A stretch of DNA of 64,000 nucleotides. Origin: Chlorella sorokiniana. Taxonomy: Eukaryota; Chlorophyta; Trebouxiophyceae; Chlorellales; Chlorellaceae. The stretch covers positions 682,001 through 746,000 of the forward strand of contig CP084619.1 of NCBI GenBank assembly GCA_025917655.1, read 5' to 3'. Below the pieces are notes generated by a model that did not search any database, had not been told where the DNA came from, and worked only from the letters and a program-made list of their open reading frames with translations. The translations under genes were made by a program, and so were the position numbers. Numbering within the stretch: the first letter of the stretch is position 1; each line of letters opens with the position of its first letter. Of this stretch, positions 9,537-21,529 are shown piece by piece.

Positions 9537-10832
9537 TCATGGCTCGTAGTTGAGCATGGGCCTGAGCCAGCGCTGCGCCTCCCCAGCTCCATCTTCTTGC
9601 GGGCGGCGTAGTCCTCAACCTGGTCCGCCGTGATCTTGCCCACCGCAAAGTACTGGGCGGCGGGGGAGGCGAAGTAGAGGCCCGACACCGAGGCCGCGGG
9701 CAGCATGGCCATCGACTCGGTGAGGGCCATGCCCACCTGGGGAGCAAGATCAAAGGAGGGGGTTCCTTTGTTGGCAAGGCTGGACGCATGGCGTACCACT
9801 TTTACAAAGCGAGTGGACTGCAGCCAAGCCGTCCATGTGCAGCGTCCTCCCTGCCACGCCAGGTTCGGTTCTGCCCCTCAAGCCTTCCTGTGCCGCTTGA
9901 GCACGCCGCCCGCTGGTGCCCCCGCACCGCCCACACCGGCAGTCCCCCCCACCCCTCCCCCTCCTCACCTGCTCCTCCACCCGCATCAGGTCCCACATCG
10001 TGCGCTTCTCGGTGTGGTCGGGCTGGGAGGGGTAGCCGGGGGCGGGACGGATGCCGCGGTACCGCACCTTGAGCATGTCCTCCACGCTGAGCGCCTCATC
10101 GGCGGCGTAGCCCCACACCTCCCGCCGCACCAGCTCGTGCAGCCGCTCGGCGGCCGCCTCGGCCAGCCGGTCGGCCAGAGCCTCGGCCATGATGTACGAG
10201 TAGTCGTCGCCCGCCGCCTTGTACTGCTCCGTCATGGCCTCCACGCCCATGGCTGCTCGGGGGGGGGTGTGGGTGGGTGGGTGGGGGCTCATGTGGTTGG
10301 GGGTGTTAGGTTGCGGGTGTGTCATTGGCTCAGGCGGGTGGGTGGTGGTGGCGGAAGGAAGAGACGGAGGGGTGTCATTGGGTCAGGTGAGTGGGTGGGT
10401 GAGGTGCGTGGAGGCGGCCACGTCAGCATGGGGGCGTGCATGCAACAGCCTCCAGCTGGAGGGCAGCTGGAGGGCCCAGGGTGTGTGCAGCGCGCGGCCG
10501 AGCGGCCCCGGTGCGCGCTGCCAGCTCCCGCGACAGCCCCGCTCGACCCGCAGGCACTTTGTGAGCAGACCGCGGAGCCGGGGTGTGCTGGGGCAGGCGG
10601 GCGGGCGCCTTGAGAAACGGTGCGGCGGGGGAGCGGCTCACCCGCGTTGGCAAACATGCCCAGGTAGTCGACGGTGCCGGAGGAGCGCGGGGCCACAAAG
10701 TCGGAGAGGCAGTAGTAGGGCTCGTCGCCGCCGTCCTTCTCCGCCTGCTGGCGCAGGCCGTGGAAGCGGGCCACCACCTGGGGGGTGGATGTGGGGGAGG
10801 GAGGGCAGAGGTGGGAGTGGCTGTGGTGTGAG

Positions 10833-10874
<42 letters not shown>

Positions 10875-13390
10875 GGGGGGCAAGCGCAGAAGCAGGTACA
10901 AGCAGCAAGGGGGTGCCACGGTCGCCCTTTGTGTGGGCCGCCGTCGACAGGGTGGAGGGCGGCCACGCCCTGGGCCACGCCCACCCAGCAGCGGCCGGCG
11001 GCAGCGACGACGGCTGCCAAGCAGGCCGGCGCTGCAAGCATGTGCTGGCTGCAGCACGCGGTGCATGCCTCGCAACCCCGCCCGCCACCTGCCCACGACC
11101 AGCACACTCAGACATCCCCCCCTTCCCCTTTCGTCACATCTTCACCACCCGCCCACTCACCTCCCCCGGCTCTCGTCGGCGTACACCTCGATGTCGTCGC
11201 CCACCGAGTTGGCGGGGAAGATGCCCACCACGCCGCACAGGCGCAGCTTCTTGCCCGCAATGATGTCCTGCGGCGAGGCGGAGGGGTCATGGGAGGGAGG
11301 GAGGGCTGGTGAGAGGGGGCTTCGCAGGACGCGCACGCTGCCTGCCAGGGGCCGCAGGCGCAGCGCAGCTATGCGCGGAGGCAGGCAGGCAGGCGGTCGC
11401 TAGATGGGAAGGGAAGCATTGTGCATTCAGGACAACGCCTCGGCGCCACGATGCAGCGGCGGGGGCGGGCGGGGGCGGGCGGTGGGCCCACCTGGAGCAT
11501 GGCCTGCGCCTCGTCAAACAGCTTGCGCGCCTCCGACCCCACGGTCTCGTCGTTGAAGATCTTGGGGTAGCCGCGGTTGGGGTAGCGCCCCGCAGCTGCC
11601 ACACCTGCGGCGTGCCGGGTCAAGGAAAGGGGTAGGGAAGGTTGAGGTGAGGCGTGGCGGCGGTGGGGTGTGCAGCGACAGCTGGCAGCCGACGGCCGGT
11701 GGCGGCCCGGAGAGCTGGGGCCAGCCAGGGGCAGGAGACAGGCCTGCAACATCCACTGATCAGCAAACGCCGATGCACACGCACACGCACACGCACACGC
11801 GCTGCCCATCACCGTCTACAAACAGCCACGCAGGCCAGCCTGTCCCAGGGCCCCCCGCCCCGCCCAGCGCTGCAGTCGTCGCCGCCACCGCCGCACCTGG
11901 AAGAAGGGGTTCCAGTCGATGTAGGGCAGCAGCTGCTCCAGGTCCAGCTCGTGGTACACCTTGGTGCCCAGCAGGTTGGGGCGCACGGGGGCGTTCTCGG
12001 GGGCAGACCAGTCCACCTGCGTGGAAGGCAGGGCGGGGGGCAAAGGTGGGCCACGTGGGCGGGGGCAGCTCAACACCGCCGGCGCTGGCACAACAGGCAC
12101 CGATGCACAGGGCGAGGGGGCGGGGCCAAGCGACAAGCAGCAATGGGGGAGACAAGGGCAGATGGGAAGGGCGGTGCGCAGCGGGCAGCCCAGTTGTTTT
12201 GCTGGTTCAGGGCGCACACCTGCAAGCCCTTCCGCTGCACCTCCGGCAACGGCAGGTACTTGCGGTCCTCCAGGCCCGCAAAGAACTCCTCCCGCATCTC
12301 CGCGTACTGCTCCCTGCGCAGGCGGTACAGTCGGCAGTACGTGCGCGGGCTCGGAACCGACGCGCATGCATGGAAGCAGCAGGCAAGGCGGGCAAGCGCT
12401 CCGCAGCGCCGGCGGCGGCTGCAGCGCCCCACGCCGAGGCGCCACCCGGCCGCCCTGCACCGCACAACTCAGCGCAAGCTGCAGCGCGCGCGCCTGATGT
12501 CCTCCACAAACTCCTCCTTCTGCCGGGCGTCCAGCAGCGACTGCGCCACCGGCACGGAGCGGGACGCGTCCAGCACGTACACCACGGGGCCGCTGTACTG
12601 CGGCGCGATCTTCACCGCCGTGTGCATCTTGGAGGTGGTGGCGCCGCCGATGAGCAGCGGCAGGCGCAGGCCGCGCTCCTCCATGCGCTTCGCCACGGTG
12701 ACCTGACCGGGAGGAGGGGGGCGGCGGCGTTGAGCTGCACACGTGTGGCTGACACGAGGGGCAGCCTGCCAAGGCCACCCTTGGTGTGCTGCTGTGAAGC
12801 GCCAAACAAACCCATGCACTTCCGCCCGCAGTTGCTGCCCCACGCCCAGGCGAGGCAGACCGGCAGACCTCAACCACCCTCGGGCTCACCGCTTCCCCAA
12901 CAGCCCCAGCTGGCCCCTGCCGCAACAGCCCCCGCTGTCCGCTGCCTCATCCCCCTGGCTATCCCCCTGCCAGCACAGCAGCCCGGCTGCCCACCATCTC
13001 GTCCAGGGAGGGGGTGATGAGGCCCGACAGGCCGATGATGTCAGCATTGTGCTCCACGGCGGCATCCAGGATCTTCTCCCAGGGGCACATCACGCCCACG
13101 TCCACCACCTGCGCCAGCGCCGCCGCACCGCCTTGTCAGCCGTGCAGGGCAGACCGGGCTGGCGGCACGCAAGCGGGCGAGCTGGCCACAGGCGCGGGTA
13201 GGCAGGCGGGCAGCACGCCCGGCCCAGAGCGCAAGCCCAGGGCATCCTATCCCTGCCCCTACCGTCTCCTTCCAGGCCAGCCTGTTGCGAACCGTCGTCC
13301 CACACACACACCCAGCGCACATCCTCCCCCACCCACCCACCCACCCACACCCCACCCCCTCTCCGGCACCCACCTTGAAGTTGTTGCAGC

Positions 13391-13436
<46 letters not shown>

Positions 13437-16400
13437 CTTGACGGTGGCCATGATGATGACGCCCGCGTTGTCGCTGCCGCCGCCGCCCCCGCCGCCCTCT
13501 TCTCCTCCTCGATGAAAGGCACCAGGTGGCCCACCGCGCGCTTCATCACCCGTGCGGACTTGATGACCTGAAGGGGGAGGAGGGCGGCGCGCACAAGGGC
13601 CAAGCAGCTGTGGGGTCTACAGCGAAACATACGGCTGGCAAGCAAGGGGGCCAGGCTGCGGCGCTTCCAGCAGGCGGCATGCGGCCGCGTCGAGCGCGCC
13701 AGCAAGCCGCCTACTGTGCCATTGGCCCCCGCCGTTTCCCGTGCGCACAAGGCAAACGCTTGCGATCGCGCTCAGCGGTGGGGCGCACCTGGGGCAGGAA
13801 CATCTTGCCGGCGCCAAACAGGTCCCCACGACGTTCATGCCGTCCATGAGGGGGCCCTCAATGACGTTCAGCGGGCGCGGGTAGAGCCCGCACGTGCGCG
13901 CCTCCTCCGTGTCGGCCACCACGAACTCGTCGATGCCCTTGATGAGCGCGTGCTCCAGCCGCTTCTCCACCGGCAGCTCGCGCCAGGAGGCCTGCGGCGG
14001 CGGCGGCGCCAAGGGAGGCGGTGGCGGCGGCGGCGGCTGAGTGGCGCAGCAGGGTGGCAAAATGCGGTGGAAAGTGGCTGGGCAGCATATGGGCTGGCGG
14101 AAGGGGGCAAAACTGCCTCAAGGAGCGCAGTTTTGCCCCATCAATCCTCCATCAATCCAGTGAAGCAAGCACAATCATGCTTGGTACTGTGGTAATGTAA
14201 GCATTGCCCCGCTTCCTGAAGGGCCCCCCCCGCCCCAAAACACCACCACCCACACTCACACACATCCCACCTGCTTCTTGCCCTCTGCCTGCGTCGCGGC
14301 CTGCCCCTTCTTCTTCACGTCCGTGGGCTTGCACTTGGGCTCCAGCGTGGCGGCATACTCCATCATGCGCTCGGTGGCGTTGTCGCACCGGTTGAGCAGC
14401 ACGTCCTCCACAAACTCGAGCAGCTCCTTGTCAATCTTCTCGTACACATCGGCCTTGACCTGCGACGCAACATGTGACGGGCAGTTGGTGAACAAAAGGC
14501 CGATGGGTGAGCAAGGCGTGAGTTGCGCACCGCTCAACCACAAGAGCAGGTGCTGAACAGAGCAATGAGCAGCCAGGGGCAGCAAGCCAGCTCCAGCAGC
14601 GCAGCACGCCAACCAATCAGCATCAAGCCTGCCCGTAAGCGCAACGCCGCACCTGCGCCGCGTTGACGATGCCCATGTCCATGCCGGCTGCGCACGCGTG
14701 GTGCAGGAAGGCGGAGTGGAAAGCGCGCCGCACCGCCTCGTTGCCGCGGAAGGAGAAGGCGATGTTGGACACGCCGCCGCTGATCTTGGCGCCCGGGCAC
14801 ACGCGCTTGATCTCGCGCGTCGCACGGATGAAGTCAACCGCGTAGTTGTTGTGCTCGGACAGCCCCGTGCCCACGGTCAGGATGTTGGGGTCAAAGATGA
14901 TGTCCTGCGGGTTGAACCCAACCTCCTCCACAAGGATGCGGTACGCGCGCTGGCAGATGCGCACCTGCGGCGGAGGGAGGGCAGAACAGGCACAGCGCAG
15001 TTGTGCAGGCTGACGGAAATGCAGCAAGTATTGATGGCAGCTACAGAAAAGACCAGACAATGAGGAATATGGGCCAAAAAGAGGTTGCAGGAGGCTGTAG
15101 CAGCCCCAGCATCACAACAGGCCCGGCTGCAGCGGGCCTGCAACCCAGGAACACTTGCAAACCATCATACGCTGACCCTCTGCACCAGCTTTCTTCATGC
15201 CCACCTTGTCCGCATAGCCAGCAGCCTGCCCCTCCTCGTCGAAGGCCATCACCACCAGGGCAGCGCCATGACGCTTGACAATGTTGGCTTGCTCCCTGAA
15301 CTTCTCCTCGCCCTCCTTCAGCGAGATGGAGTTCACAATGCACTTGCCCTGCATTTGGGGGAGGCAACACGCACTTGCTGAGCAATAGAACATGAGGTTT
15401 CAAGCATACTTCAACAAGACAGGAAGAAAGAAAGACTACTCGGAGCAGTTGGGGAGTGCGCGCTGCTCCTCCCCCTCCTCCCCACACACCCACCTGGCAG
15501 CACTTGAGGCCCGCCTCAATGATGAAGAACTTGGACGAGTCAATCATGAAGGGCACGCGGCTGGCCTCGGGATCGGACACCAACAGGTTCACAAACCGCG
15601 TCATGGCGGGCACGCCGTCGATCAGGCCGTCATCCATGTTGATGTCCAGCACATCAGCACCCGCGTTCACCTGAAGTGGGCAATGCGAAGGATGGGTGCC
15701 CAGGTGAGTCTTGGTGTGCAGAGGATACCAACAAACAAAGATATCAACAAACAACAACTGACGGCCACGCTTAGAAGCGAAGCATGCCCGTGCGCCAACT
15801 GCAGCCTCCACCTTTCTGGTCCAGTCCCTGGCATCAATCAATCCCTCCTCCCAGCACAAACCCCGCACACATCGCAGCAGCCCCACCTGCGACAGAGCAA
15901 TGGACATCGCCTTGTCGTAGTCGCCATCCACGATCGCCTTCTTGTACAGGATGGAGCCAGCCACGTTGCATCGCTCGCCAATGTTCAGAAACGTCTCCCG
16001 CATGTTGGCGGCGTTGGGCTCGTAGTTCAGTGGCTCCAGCCCGCTCAAGCGCAGCAGAGCAGGCACGTCATGCCGCTGGCGGGGCGGGTATGCCGACGCC
16101 ATCTCGCGGATGGCCGCGATGTGCTCCGGGCTGGTGCCGCAGCAGCCGCCGATCGCGTTCACCAGGCCCTCCTCGCAGAAGGGGCGGATCTCCTCAGCCA
16201 TCTCAGGCCCCCGCTGGTCGTACCCGCCCATGGCGTTGGGCAAGCCCGCGTTGGGGTAGCAGAACACGTAGCAGTCCGCGCACGCTGCCAGGTTGGCCAC
16301 GTACTTCTTCATGTCGCTGGCGCCCAGGGCGCAGTTCAGCCCCACCGCCAGAGGCTTGGCGTGGCTCACGCTGTTCCAGAACGCCTCGTTGGTCTGGCCG

Positions 16401-17219
16401 CTCAGCGTGCGCCCAGAGTTGTCCACAATCGTGCCGCTGATGAACACCGGGATGCGCACACCCTGCAGAAGGAGCCAGAGGGGACAGTAGGAAGTTACTG
16501 TCAGCTGCGCGGCCAATCAACCACACTTGGCACCGTAGCAACCCGGCCCTATGCAGCCAGGCAAACAATCTACAGCGCCACTGCAGCCAGGCAAACAATT
16601 TACAGTGCCACCCCTGCCTGCCCCTCAAAGCAGCTGCAATTGCAGCTGTCCCTTATCACAGCCAGGCACAACAAACTCGGAGGACAGGCACCGCAAACTG
16701 GCAGCCTGCCCACCTTCTCCTCAAAGAAGCGCTCCAACGCATAGACGGCAGCCTTGGCGTTGCCCGTATCAAAGATGGTCTCCACCAGAAACATGTCCAC
16801 GCCACCCTCGTACAGAGCTGCCGCCTGCTCGTAATATGCCTGCTCAATCTCGTCGTAAGTCACGCCGCGCAGCGCAGGGTTCTCCACGCTGGGCGACACG
16901 CTCAGCGTCTTGTTGGTGGGGCCAATGGCGCCAGCCACAAACTTGCGGCTGCCAGGGTGGGCCGCCATGTAGGCGGCCGTCGCCTTCTTGGCCAGCTGGG
17001 CAGCGGCGCGGTTGATCTCAACCACCTCCTCCAGCTGGTCAAGCTGGTAGTCAGCCTGTTAAGAGGGGCATGAGACATGGAAGCAACGATGAGAACAAAG
17101 GCAGCACAGGACATCAAAATCCAGAGCATTCAGGAACTTCAAACAAATCAGTTGAAAACCCAGCATCCAAACCCAAGATAGCCTAACCAGCGGCCACCAT
17201 ACCTGCGAGATGGTGGTGC

Positions 17220-17253
<34 letters not shown>

Positions 17254-20200
17254 GCCCTCCAGGTACGCGGTGTGGATCTCCTCAATCACGTCGGGCGGGT
17301 CAGCACCAGCACGTCGTTGTTGCCCTTCAGCTCGTGTGCGTGGTCCTTGTACCTGCAGCAATAGAGCGGGCCATGCAGGACAACGATTTGAACCATCTGC
17401 AAGAGCAGGAAGCCAACTCAAAAAGCGGGGACACCGGCATTCTCTCAGCAGCATCCCCTCCCCCCCCCCCCTCACCTCTCGCCGCGGAAGTCCTCCTCCT
17501 GCAGCTTGTACCGCTGGATCATGGTCCCCATGGCACCGTCGATGAAGATGATGCGCTCCTGCATCAGCGCCTCCAGCTGATCAAACGCCTCGGACTTGGC
17601 CAGCGGGTCCGACCAGGCCTTGTACTGGGGCACGGGCGGCAGCTCCGCCTCCGGCGCAAGCGGATCCACACCAACAGGAATGGGGTTGAGCTTGGGGGTG
17701 AAGGCAGGCGTGGCGTTGAGCTTGCGCACAGCAGTGGGCTTGCACTTGGGCTCCAGCGTGGCGGCATAGTCAAGGATGCGCTCGGTGGCGTCGTCGCGAC
17801 GGTTCAGCAGCACATCCTCCACATACTCAAGCAGCTCCTTGTCAATCTTCTCGTACACATCCGCCTTGACCTGCAAGGATGGACGATTGGCCATGGTAAG
17901 CACAAGGGGGAACGTTGCCTGTCGCCATGTCATCTATGCAAAGAGTGGCGTTTCACAGCTCAGCAGCGTGGTCACACACCTGCGCCGCGTTGACGATGCC
18001 CATGTCCATGCCGGCTGCGCACGCGTGGTGCAGGAAGGCGGAGTGGAAAGCGCGCCGCACCGCCTCGTTGCCGCGGAAGGAGAAGGCGATGTTGGACACG
18101 CCGCCGCTGATCTTGGCGCCCGGGCACACGCGCTTGATCTCGCGCGTCGCACGGATGAAGTCAACCGCGTAGTTGTTGTGCTCGGACAGCCCCGTGCCCA
18201 CGGTCAGGATGTTGGGGTCAAAGATGATGTCCTGCGGGTTGAACCCAACCTCCTCCACAAGGATGCGGTACGCGCGCTGGCAGATGCGCACCTGCGGCGG
18301 AGGGAGGGCATAACAGGCAAAGCACGATTGTGCAGGCTGAGTAAAATGCAGTTATATGGCAGACTGAAGAAGCCAAACACGATGTAGGAAAGCCTCAACA
18401 AGCATGCCTGCAATAAGGCGCAATAGCAACAGCAACAGCAGCAGAACACGCACGGCAGCAGTGAACTGCAGACCAGGAATGCTGGCAAAGAACCGCAGCC
18501 GAAAACCTCCGCATCAGCGCCCATCACACCCACCTTGTCCGCATAGCCGGCAGCCTGCCCCTCCTCGTCGAAGGCCATCACCACCAGGGCAGCGCCATGA
18601 CGCTTGACAATGTTGGCTTGCTCCCTGAACTTCTCCTCGCCCTCCTTCAGCGAGATGGAGTTCACAATGCACTTGCCCTGCATTTGGGGGAGGCAACACG
18701 CACTTGCTGAGCAATAGAACATGAGGTTTCAAGCATACGTCAACAAGACAGGAAGAAAGAAAGACTACTCGGAGCAGTTGGGGAGTGCGCGCTGCTCCTC
18801 CCCCTCCTCCCCACACACCCACCTGGCAGCACTTGAGGCCCGCCTCAATGATGAAGAACTTGGATGAGTCAATCATGAACGGCACGCGGCTGGCCTCGGG
18901 ATCGGACACCAACAGGTTCACAAACCGCGTCATGGCGGGCACGCCGTCGATCAGGCCGTCATCCATGTTGATGTCCAGCACATCAGCACCCGCGTTCACC
19001 TGAAGTGGGCAATGGTTGTAAACACACAGCTTGTGATGCCCAGCCTGGAAACAGAGCAGGCCCATACGCCATCTGCAGACGCCACCTCTCTGGTCTAGTC
19101 CCTGCCATCAATCGATTTCTCCTCCCAACACACACCCCTGACACTGCACACCGTGGCAGCCCCACCTGCGACAGAGCAATGGACATCGCCTTGTCGTAGT
19201 CGCCATCCACGATCGCCTTCTTGTACAGGATGGAGCCAGCCACGTTGCATCGCTCGCCAATGTTCAGAAACGTCTCCCGCATGTTGGCGGCGTTGGGCTC
19301 GTAGTTCAGTGGCTCCAGCCCGCTCAAGCGCAGCAGAGCAGGCACGTCATGCCGCTGGCGGGGCGGGTATGCCGACGCCATCTCGCGGATGGCCGCGATG
19401 TGCTCCGGGCTGGTGCCGCAGCAGCCGCCGATCGCGTTCACCAGGCCCTCCTCGCAGAAGGGGCGGATCTCCTCAGCCATCTCAGGCCCCCGCTGGTCGT
19501 ACCCGCCCATGGCGTTGGGCAAGCCCGCGTTGGGGTAGCAGAACACGTAGCAGTCCGCGCACGCTGCCAGGTTGGCCACGTACTTCTTCATGTCGCTGGC
19601 GCCCAGGGCGCAGTTCAGCCCCACCGCCAGAGGCTTGGCGTGGCTCACGCTGTTCCAGAACGCCTCGTTGGTCTGGCCGCTCAGCGTGCGCCCAGAGTTG
19701 TCCACAATCGTGCCGCTGATGAACACCGGGATGCGCACACCCTGCAGAAGGAGCCAGAGGGGACAGTAGGAAGTTACTGTCAGCTGCGCGGCCAATCAAC
19801 CACACTTGGCACCGTAGCAACCCGGCCCTATGCAGCCAGGCAAACAATCTACAGCGCCACTGCAGCCAGGCAAACAATTTACAGTGCCACCCCTGCCTGC
19901 CCCTCAAAGCAGCTGCAATTGCAGCTGTCCCTTATCACAGCCAGGCACAACAAACTCGGAGGACAGGCACCGCAAACTGGCAGCCTGCCCACCTTCTCCT
20001 CAAAGAAGCGCTCCAACGCATAGACGGCAGCCTTGGCGTTGCCCGTATCAAAGATGGTCTCCACCAGAAACATGTCCACGCCACCCTCGTACAGAGCTGC
20101 CGCCTGCTCGTAATATGCCTGCTCAATCTCGTCGTAAGTCACGCCGCGCAGCGCAGGGTTCTCCACGCTGGGCGACACGCTCAGCGTCTTGTTGGTGGGG

Positions 20201-20498
20201 CCAATGGCGCCAGCCACAAACTTGCGGCTGCCAGGGTGGGCCGCCATGTAGGCGGCCGTCGCCTTCTTGGCCAGCTGGGCAGCGGCGCGGTTGATCTCAA
20301 CCACCTCCTCCAGCTGGTCAAGCTGGTAGTCAGCCTGTTAAGAGGGGCATGAGACATGGAAGCAACGATGAGAACAAAGGCAGCACAGGACATCAAAATC
20401 CAGAGCATTCAGGAACTTCAAACAAATCAGTTGAAAACCCAGCATCCAAACCCAAGATAGCCTAACCAGCGGCCACCATACCTGCGAGATGGTGGTGC

Positions 20499-20532
<34 letters not shown>

Positions 20533-21529
20533 GCCCTCCAGGTACGCGGTGTGGATCTCCTCAATCACGTCGGGCGGGTCAGCACCAGCACATCGTTGTT
20601 GCCCTTGAGCTCGTGCGCATGGTCCTTGTACCTGCAGCCATAGGGTGGGCCATGCCAGGGTGAGAGAGCAGCCTCGACAGCTGTGCCAGCGCCAGCCAAC
20701 TGCTCCCATTTTGGGCTCAGCAGCTGCCCCCTCCCCTACCCCCTACACCGCTCGCCGCGGAAGTCCTCCTCCTGCAGCTTGTACCGCTGGATCATGGTCC
20801 CCATGGCGCCGTCGATGAAGATGATGCGCTCCTGCATGAGCGCCTCCAGCTGCTCAAACGCCTCGGACTTGGCCAGCGGGTCCGACCACGCCTTGTACTG
20901 GGGCACAGGCGGCAGCTCCTCCTCCGGCGCCAGAGTGGGAGGGATCTGATACATGCTGCCCTGTGCTGCCTGGGCTGCGCCTGCCACAAGAGGGCTAGCT
21001 GGCACGGGTGGTGCCAGCTCTGGTGCGGCCGCAGCTTTAACGCTGCTGGTGGGTGCTGCCGCAGGCTCAGCTGTGGGTGCTGCAACCTCCTGCGCCTGCT
21101 GCACTCCTTCCGCTGCAGACACTGCACGAAGAGTTGAATAATGGCAATCATAAATGCGCAATTCTGCAATGGTAACGTTGGGGTTGCATGAAGGCAGCGC
21201 AGCCTACCAGCTTGGGCTGCAGGCTCGGGAGCAGCAACTGCAGGCGGCCGCTCACTGCCGCTGGTCAGCCACCAGATAGCCTGCGGTTGGGGGCAATCAG
21301 CGATATATATCGGCTTCAAGACATATCAAAGGGGCGCAAAGGACTGCATGCGGCAAGCGCAGCGTGGTCTCACAGCGACAAAAAACAGAGTTGGCACGAG
21401 GATAGGAGCGCCAAGGACGGCGATTGCCAGGAGCAAAGGGCTGCACAAAAAGGTCAGAGGGACTCCGACCAGGGCCAGCAAGCCAGCCCGCAGTGGCCTT
21501 GCTCGGGCTGCTTCGAGCAAGGCCTGCAT
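9537..21529 (-). CDS. METH: Cobalamin-dependent methionine synthase, internally duplicated
   Basis: Transfers a methyl group from 5-methyl-tetrahydrofolate through cobalamin to homocysteine. Reading from 21529 down: a hydrophobic leader (21374-21529, 21208-21280), a linker and start of the homocysteine domain (20749-21121), homocysteine domain 1 with Zn ligands in GLNCALG and [10 protein letters not shown] (20482-20631, 19993-20334, 19166-19741), folate domain 1 (18823-18999, 18534-18677, 17980-18291), a chimeric exon (17476-17870), the same two domains again (17203-17352, 16714-17055, 15887-16462, 15494-15670, 15205-15348, 14653-14964), cap (14271-14459, 13789-13991, 13374-13567), the B12 site DVHDIGKN and Rossmann fold (12995-13108, 12494-12702, 12220-12313), and the activation domain (11897-12016, 11492-11604, 11161-11267, 10642-10777, 9969-10252, 9537-9736; RPAPGYP, ending LNYEP). 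About 2,000+ residues against 1,227 in E. coli MetH. Single-base breaks at 9581-9584, 11163-11167, 11588-11591, 13486-13490, 13824-13827, 17293-17299 and 20572-20578. Confidence 0.9.
10836..10871. repeat. (TG)n microsatellite in a METH intron
   Basis: An uninterrupted TG/CA dinucleotide run in the intron between METH exons 10642-10777 and 11161-11267, followed by a G run. On the transcribed minus strand it reads (CA)n. No coding potential. Confidence 0.95.
14653..17352 (-). repeat. METH duplicated block, downstream copy
   Basis: Six exons encoding a homocysteine-binding and a folate-binding domain. Every exon has the same length and phase as its partner in 17980-20631 (312, 144, 177, 576, 342 and 150 nt). 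From about 15887 to 17300 exons and introns look base-for-base identical to the other copy, offset about 3,279 bp. The introns 14965-15204 and 15671-15886 are clearly diverged from their partners. Confidence 0.95.
17476..17870 (-). other. Chimeric METH exon joining folate domain 1 to homocysteine domain 2
   Basis: One 395-nt open exon starts [20 protein letters not shown], the end of a folate/cap module. It passes through a Pro-rich linker ([21 protein letters not shown]) and continues as [15 protein letters not shown] to DFRGER, the start of a homocysteine module. It is in frame throughout and ends in phase 2, matching the next exon. The two halves resemble exons 14271-14459 and 20749-21121 but differ by several substitutions (for example F to Y, C to R, N to D). 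It is therefore not a verbatim copy of either. Confidence 0.85.
17980..20631 (-). repeat. METH duplicated block, upstream copy
   Basis: The partner of 14653-17352, carrying the first homocysteine/folate module of the predicted product (exons 17980-18291, 18534-18677, 18823-18999, 19166-19741, 19993-20334, 20482-20631). It includes a 29-bp tandem pair in the intron near 19827-19890 that is also present in the other copy near 16550-16610. It shares with the other copy the single-base frame break in the exon encoding the [19 protein letters not shown] segment. Confidence 0.95.
21374..21529 (-). other. First exon of METH model: hydrophobic leader
   Basis: ATG at 21529-21527 opens a 52-codon exon ending at GCT|GTGAGA. 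It reads [20 protein letters not shown] and then a long hydrophobic stretch ([20 protein letters not shown]). It splices in phase 0 to 21280-21208 ([13 protein letters not shown]), then in phase 1 to 21121-20749, which leads without a break into the METH homocysteine domain. Phases agree at all three joins. An alternative is that translation begins at the ATG at 20954 ([18 protein letters not shown]), leaving these exons to another transcript. Confidence 0.55.

Follow-up and report, generated by a model that had tools for sequence, protein, structure and literature searches.

A methionine synthase (METH) gene of Chlorella sorokiniana appears to carry its N-terminal half twice. The gene lies on the minus strand, from approximately 21 kb down to approximately 9.6 kb of a 64,000-nucleotide (nt) stretch of contig CP084619.1 in assembly GCA_025917655.1 (C2:682001-746000), and this whole stretch is called the window below. 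The N-terminal half (N-half) of the enzyme comprises a homocysteine (Hcy) and a folate (Fol) barrel, which are followed by the Cap, B12-binding and activation (Act) domains. The doubled structure is confirmed in the assembly and is very probably real in the genome. In what we consider the probable interpretation, there is a single METH gene whose N-half has been doubled inside the gene, with the order N-half, linker, N-half, Cap, B12, Act and a predicted length of approximately 1,975 residues. From the sequence we infer one mRNA, one protein and catalysis by both blocks.

The initial annotation had proposed the order Hcy-Fol-Hcy-Fol-Cap-B12-Act, with a single Cap, B12 and activation region and a product of about 2,000 residues. 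Pfam matches along the gene give precisely this order, with PF02574 in two stretches and PF00809 likewise, followed downstream by PF02607, PF02310 and PF02965 once each. The translation, as pieced together from the exons, amounts to 1,398 + 577 residues.

The fusion exon

A single in-frame exon had been predicted to join the two modules, and it can be placed exactly at 17870-17476. This exon of 395 nt is open, is entered in phase 0 and left in phase 2, and thereby matches both of its neighbours. Its flanking introns have GT-AG ends and measure just 109 and 123 nt, and thus there is no intergenic space around it. The poly-A signal of green algae, TGTAA, was not found between 19883 and 16604. 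The fusion exon is single in the genome, which was searched in full (38,804,885 bases in 15 contigs), and its other matches are solely its two source exons. As the initial annotation had stated, it has diverged from both of these: there are 12 differences from the terminal Fol exon in its first 137 nt, and 8 from the N-terminal exon across the 183 nt at its end. Approximately 75 nt in the middle match neither source, and the linker (approximately 50 residues, Pro-rich, CKPT...DPLAK) is the exon's own. Third codon positions hold 14 of the 20 differences (binomial p 0.0009), and of 20,000 composition-preserving shuffles of the exon just 366 kept the needed frame free of stops.

Six residues distinguish the Fol end of the fusion exon from that of the terminal exon, and they can be compared with bacterial MetH sequences. 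The bacterial loci used were the best 80 of 581 confirmed stretches from a scan with the fusion exon, and the listed matches cover parts of that exon. The region is present in 72 of the 80 loci fetched (E <= 1e-3), and in 69 of these the fusion exon gives the better score of the two exons. One search octamer, NRRDDATE, was taken from the fusion exon, and the count was therefore repeated on 50 loci matched through the other half of the exon, including two (L016 and L054) whose match begins at residue 42 or 51. Among these loci, which were not retrieved via the Fol end, 42 have the region and 39 of the 42 favor the fusion exon; the same holds for 27 of the 30 that lack the octamer. The mean score advantage is small, at approximately 4 bits. 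At two of the six sites the fusion exon retains the Arg and Asp of the family, which are replaced by Cys and Asn in the terminal exon. At the other four it shows no clear advantage, and at the last of them the family more often has Glu, the residue of the terminal exon, than Asp. A Fol end that lies closer to the family than that of the working exon is not to be expected of an untranslated junction. Overall, the open frame, phases, substitution bias and conserved residues appear to be the marks of a constrained coding exon.

It is the terminal Fol exon (14459-14271), not the fusion exon, that has lost the two conserved residues. The end of the second folate barrel might be under relaxed constraint.

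Similarity and history of the two modules

The two METH copies, called modules A and B in Table 1, had been located correctly in the initial annotation, except that the first exon set starts at 20631 rather than at 20482. Its statement that paired exons have identical lengths applies to all six pairs (150, 342, 576, 177, 144 and 312 nt). Across these exons only 7 of 1,701 nt differ, all seven at third codon positions, and the two translations are identical at 567 of 567 positions, one of which is an X at a common frame break. Exact blocks of 1,436, 334, 189, 134, 125 and 57 base pairs (bp) are common to both modules, a likeness that goes far beyond chance.

The introns fall into two groups. 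Three are identical or nearly so between the modules (147/147, 251/251 and 144/145), and on this ground a cDNA-mediated origin of the identical exons was rejected. The four others are approximately 78-82% identical with 32-92 gap columns, and may be less alike still, as gapped global alignment flatters diverged introns. The blocks of identity stop at or near these diverged introns, which suggests gene conversion between tandem copies. The duplication is probably older than the identity of the exons implies, and the modules were probably kept uniform by conversion. The fusion exon is the most diverged coding part. It has just a part in common with each partner, and this partial likeness would shelter it from conversion. 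In both modules, the intron between E4 and E5 contains a repeat of 37 bases, present twice at a spacing of 30 bases (16552-16618 and 19831-19897).

Assignment to the methionine synthase family

All five METH domains (PF02574, PF00809, PF02607, PF02310 and PF02965) are present, and these are given as the METH domain set in PMC11439496. For family scoring, a composite was used in which one module was left out and X was placed at frame breaks. It reaches 1,621.6 bits with TIGR02082 (metH), for which the cut-off is 1,010.85, over positions 2-1182 of the 1182 in the profile, and 1,850.1 bits with PRK09490 (cut-off 1,497). Both modules contain the zinc-binding cysteines of the Hcy barrel (in GLNC and GGCC), which line up with GLNCALGA and GGCCG in 4ccz and 9ssp. 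The sequence GDVHDIGKN in exon 13567-13374 fits the B12-binding motif DxHxxG. Among solved structures, the nearest relatives are 4ccz and 9ssp for the N-half and 9ssp for the C-terminal half (C-half), both of them methionine synthases; 9ssp ranks first or second for each half, and 9SSP is human MTR according to PMC13376404. A METH chain normally has just one Hcy and one Fol domain, whereas the present gene would have two of each if spliced as predicted. This is a difference in architecture rather than in family.

Frame breaks and alternative interpretations

The assembled METH sequence contains four frame breaks. There is one in each module and two in the Cap/B12 exons (13832-13813 and within 13567-13374), which are both single copy. 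All sit in runs of C or G or in G+C-rich repeats. Frame breaks also occur in an HSP70 gene (L089, C3:1270400-1271200) and in a DHPS-like pterin-binding gene (L090, C6:1026500-1027700), although these two were chosen from the HSP70 and pterin-binding searches for having adjoining matches in different frames and so show occurrence, not frequency. The shift in both is one base too many, opposite in sign to the break in the modules. Because breaks are not confined to the modules but also affect the unduplicated B12 exons and two conserved genes unrelated to METH, assembly base errors seem the likeliest explanation.

Several points weigh against a single gene with a doubled N-half. The four breaks, if real, would kill the METH protein. 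Assemblers and polishers err at near-identical tandem copies, and multi-mapped polishing might make the modules look more alike than they really are. The third-position bias of the fusion exon might partly predate the fusion, had the copies diverged first. The open frame alone is weak evidence, since, of the five other frames of the exon, one likewise contains no stop. Similarly, a Pfam search with ten of 33 mechanically called open reading frames (ORFs) of at least 330 amino acids gave no match, and thus open frames mean little in such G+C-rich DNA. Furthermore, the 5' end of METH has been placed only conservatively, at ATG 20954 (initially 21529). The true start may be further 5' because the open frame runs on upstream.

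One alternative is that the locus holds two transcription units, an N-half-only gene made of module A and an ordinary METH gene with module B that starts inside the fusion exon. There is indeed an in-frame Met in this exon near the start of the Hcy barrel, and if E8 is read through into its intron, the frame is closed by a stop eight codons on, so that an N-half-only product could be made. However, E8 and the fusion exon are only a 109-nt intron apart, with no TGTAA there, and the 5' part of the fusion exon, which encodes the Fol end, is open, in phase and conserved, as a 5' leader need not be. We therefore regard two units as unlikely.

Similarly, there is a small chance that the locus mainly yields a one-module METH by exon skipping, either from E2 to E3' or from E8 to F2, with the second module as a spare cassette. 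The splice phases would also allow an ordinary one-module enzyme to be made by skipping either copy: the fusion exon and E2 (counted from 20954) both end in phase 2 and lead to the same E3-type acceptor, and the fusion exon and F2 both begin in phase 0. With skipping, though, the fusion exon would go unused and could decay, yet it looks conserved.

An assembly artefact, in which an assembler or haplotype joining has duplicated one real module, would fit the large identical blocks, the longest exact over 1,436 bp, and the indel errors of the assembly. It would not yield an in-frame chimeric exon that differs from its sources and has its own linker, nor four introns with many indels between copies. 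Also, the genome has a single Act locus, as all PF02965 matches (four exon pieces, E <= 0.001) fall at METH, and the 3.3-kb period would be short for long reads, the likely data type to judge from an assembly of 15 contigs. An artefact is thus very unlikely.

Highly improbable is a decaying pseudogene in which a real break arose once and was copied by conversion: the one-base break is identical in both modules, two more lie downstream, and those in the HSP70 and DHPS-like genes, being opposite in sign, are not exactly the same kind of error, but the mere occurrence of breaks in these genes, the homopolymeric or G+C-rich setting of those in METH, the synonymous nature of all seven module differences and the full-length TIGR02082 match (1,622 bits) argue against decay.

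Comparison with known methionine synthases

According to the initial annotation, known MetH proteins contain a single Hcy and a single Fol module each. This agrees with the bacterial loci and with a survey of 96 genomes of one bacterial phylum, and among eukaryotes it was compared with the present genome only. Neither domain occurs twice in any of 81 loci (the 80 bacterial loci and L008). One Hcy-Fol-Cap-B12-Act set, in a single gene or in neighbouring genes, is found in 64 of them, and 16 are partial (7 with Hcy, 5 with Hcy-Fol-Cap-B12, 2 with Hcy-Fol and 2 with Fol-Cap-B12-Act). L008, which has no domain, was the one weak hit of a scan of viral contigs with the fusion exon and was rejected as a chance match of 27 residues around a search octamer, with no METH domain match (tblastn, E up to 10). 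In the 96-genome survey, which was read from a table that scored best candidates only, 88 genomes have Hcy matches and none has two in one open frame; the longest open frame with an Hcy match has 1,627 residues. Among the top-ranked papers listed in literature searches, none reports a doubled Hcy-Fol half. Thus, one B12 half with two N-halves is an architecture that none of the searches found for MetH, a textbook enzyme.

Three known arrangements provide useful comparisons. The MetH/METH/MTR proteins of TIGR02082 (9ssp, 4ccz and 8g3h) have all five domains in order, as does the present gene, which differs from them in having the N-half twice, a dedicated fusion exon and a linker of approximately 50 residues. 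The tethering of barrels to the B12 half is also altered in bacteria with separate Hcy and Fol-Cap-B12-Act genes, and the Hcy domain has its own frame, of 356 or 400 residues, in two of the three bacterial genomes looked at; however, in these split genes the chain is divided, whereas here a block has been added. Finally, MetE (PF01717) also makes methionine, but it uses no B12 and its chain is unrelated to METH. Its two barrels have diverged, unlike the METH blocks described here, which are identical. MetE is described in PMC539065 as a double barrel that arose by gene duplication.

Proposed origin and function

The chimeric exon could have been made either by tandem duplication within the gene or by deletion between two tandem full-length copies, and would connect the Fol end in frame with the beginning of Hcy. 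Four introns would subsequently have drifted to approximately 80% identity while gene conversion held the exons and three introns near-identical. Both N-halves would then encode the same enzyme.

In human MTR, the two barrels of the N-half are rigidly joined by Linker 1, and the N-half is tied to the C-half by the flexible Linker 2 (PMC13376404). The doubled unit would correspond to this rigid block, so that each N-half of the algal protein would be a rigid two-barrel block. The lone B12 domain, on its flexible Fol-Cap linker, would pick up methyl groups from folate and transfer them to homocysteine on block B next to it; block A could also be within its reach, across the Pro-rich linker. Thus, one B12 carrier might serve two identical catalytic blocks, of which the one adjoining the B12 half would have the ordinary tether and the outer one would be further off by one block and the linker. 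Both blocks are probably catalytic, because they have been kept identical. That this is a working enzyme of one B12 half and two identical N-halves, kept by conversion and hence shared by related algae, is a tentative proposal that we hold slightly less probable than its contrary. If conversion has kept the modules for long enough, the architecture should be found in such algae.

MetH is a model for modular enzymes that perform 'molecular juggling', since a single B12 domain has to reach several substrate domains in them. An additional Hcy-Fol block, identical to the first, would, if true, be a natural experiment on whether the carrier can get to a non-adjacent block. It would also raise the questions of whether a second block increases turnover and whether the rigid Hcy-Fol pair is an evolutionary unit. 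The locus is, in addition, a clear case of what appears to be gene conversion, in which two modules within one gene stay identical whereas introns and the junction exon diverge. Automated gene prediction may break such a locus apart or collapse its copies, and similar cases in other algae could therefore be missed.

Gene parts and related genes

Table 1. Parts of the predicted METH gene, in coordinates of the window
Feature	Position	Strand	Remarks
E2, N-terminal exon	20749..20954	-	Conservative start ATG 20954; frame and donor (GAGCG/gtgtag) read
Module A, first Hcy and Fol barrels, E3-E8	17980..20631	-	Pfam PF02574, PF00809
Module A exons	20631-20482, 20334-19993, 19741-19166, 18999-18823, 18677-18534, 18291-17980	-	
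One-base frame break, module A	20560..20579	-	
Fusion exon F, 395 nt	17476..17870	-	Runs from the end of the first Fol barrel through a Pro-rich linker into the start of the second Hcy barrel
Module B, second Hcy and Fol barrels, E3'-E8'	14653..17352	-	Protein identical to module A
Module B exons	17352-17203, 17055-16714, 16462-15887, 15670-15494, 15348-15205, 14964-14653	-	
Same one-base frame break, module B	17281..17300	-	
F2, terminal Fol exon, with the last part of the second Fol barrel and the linker to Cap	14271..14459	-	Homologue of 5' part of F
Cap and first part of B12-binding domain	13374..13991	-	PF02607, PF02310; alignments with solved MetH chains
Cap/B12 exons	13991-13789, 13567-13374	-	One frame break each; GDVHDIG = DxHxxG motif
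Remaining B12 domain and single Act domain	9593..13108	-	Region given as a whole
PF02965 (Act) pieces	11160-11270, 10643-10783, 9969-10253, 9593-9751	-	

Genome-wide searches (E <= 0.001) gave seven matches to PF02574, six in the two modules and one on C7, and ten to PF00809, six in the modules and four in one gene on C6. The match on C7 (C7:2506777-2507316) belongs to a gene other than METH that has an Hcy domain and probably encodes a stand-alone homocysteine methyltransferase. At C8:1875036-1877128 there are exon pieces of a methionine synthase of the METE type (PF01717), and thus the organism may be a facultative rather than an obligate user of B12.

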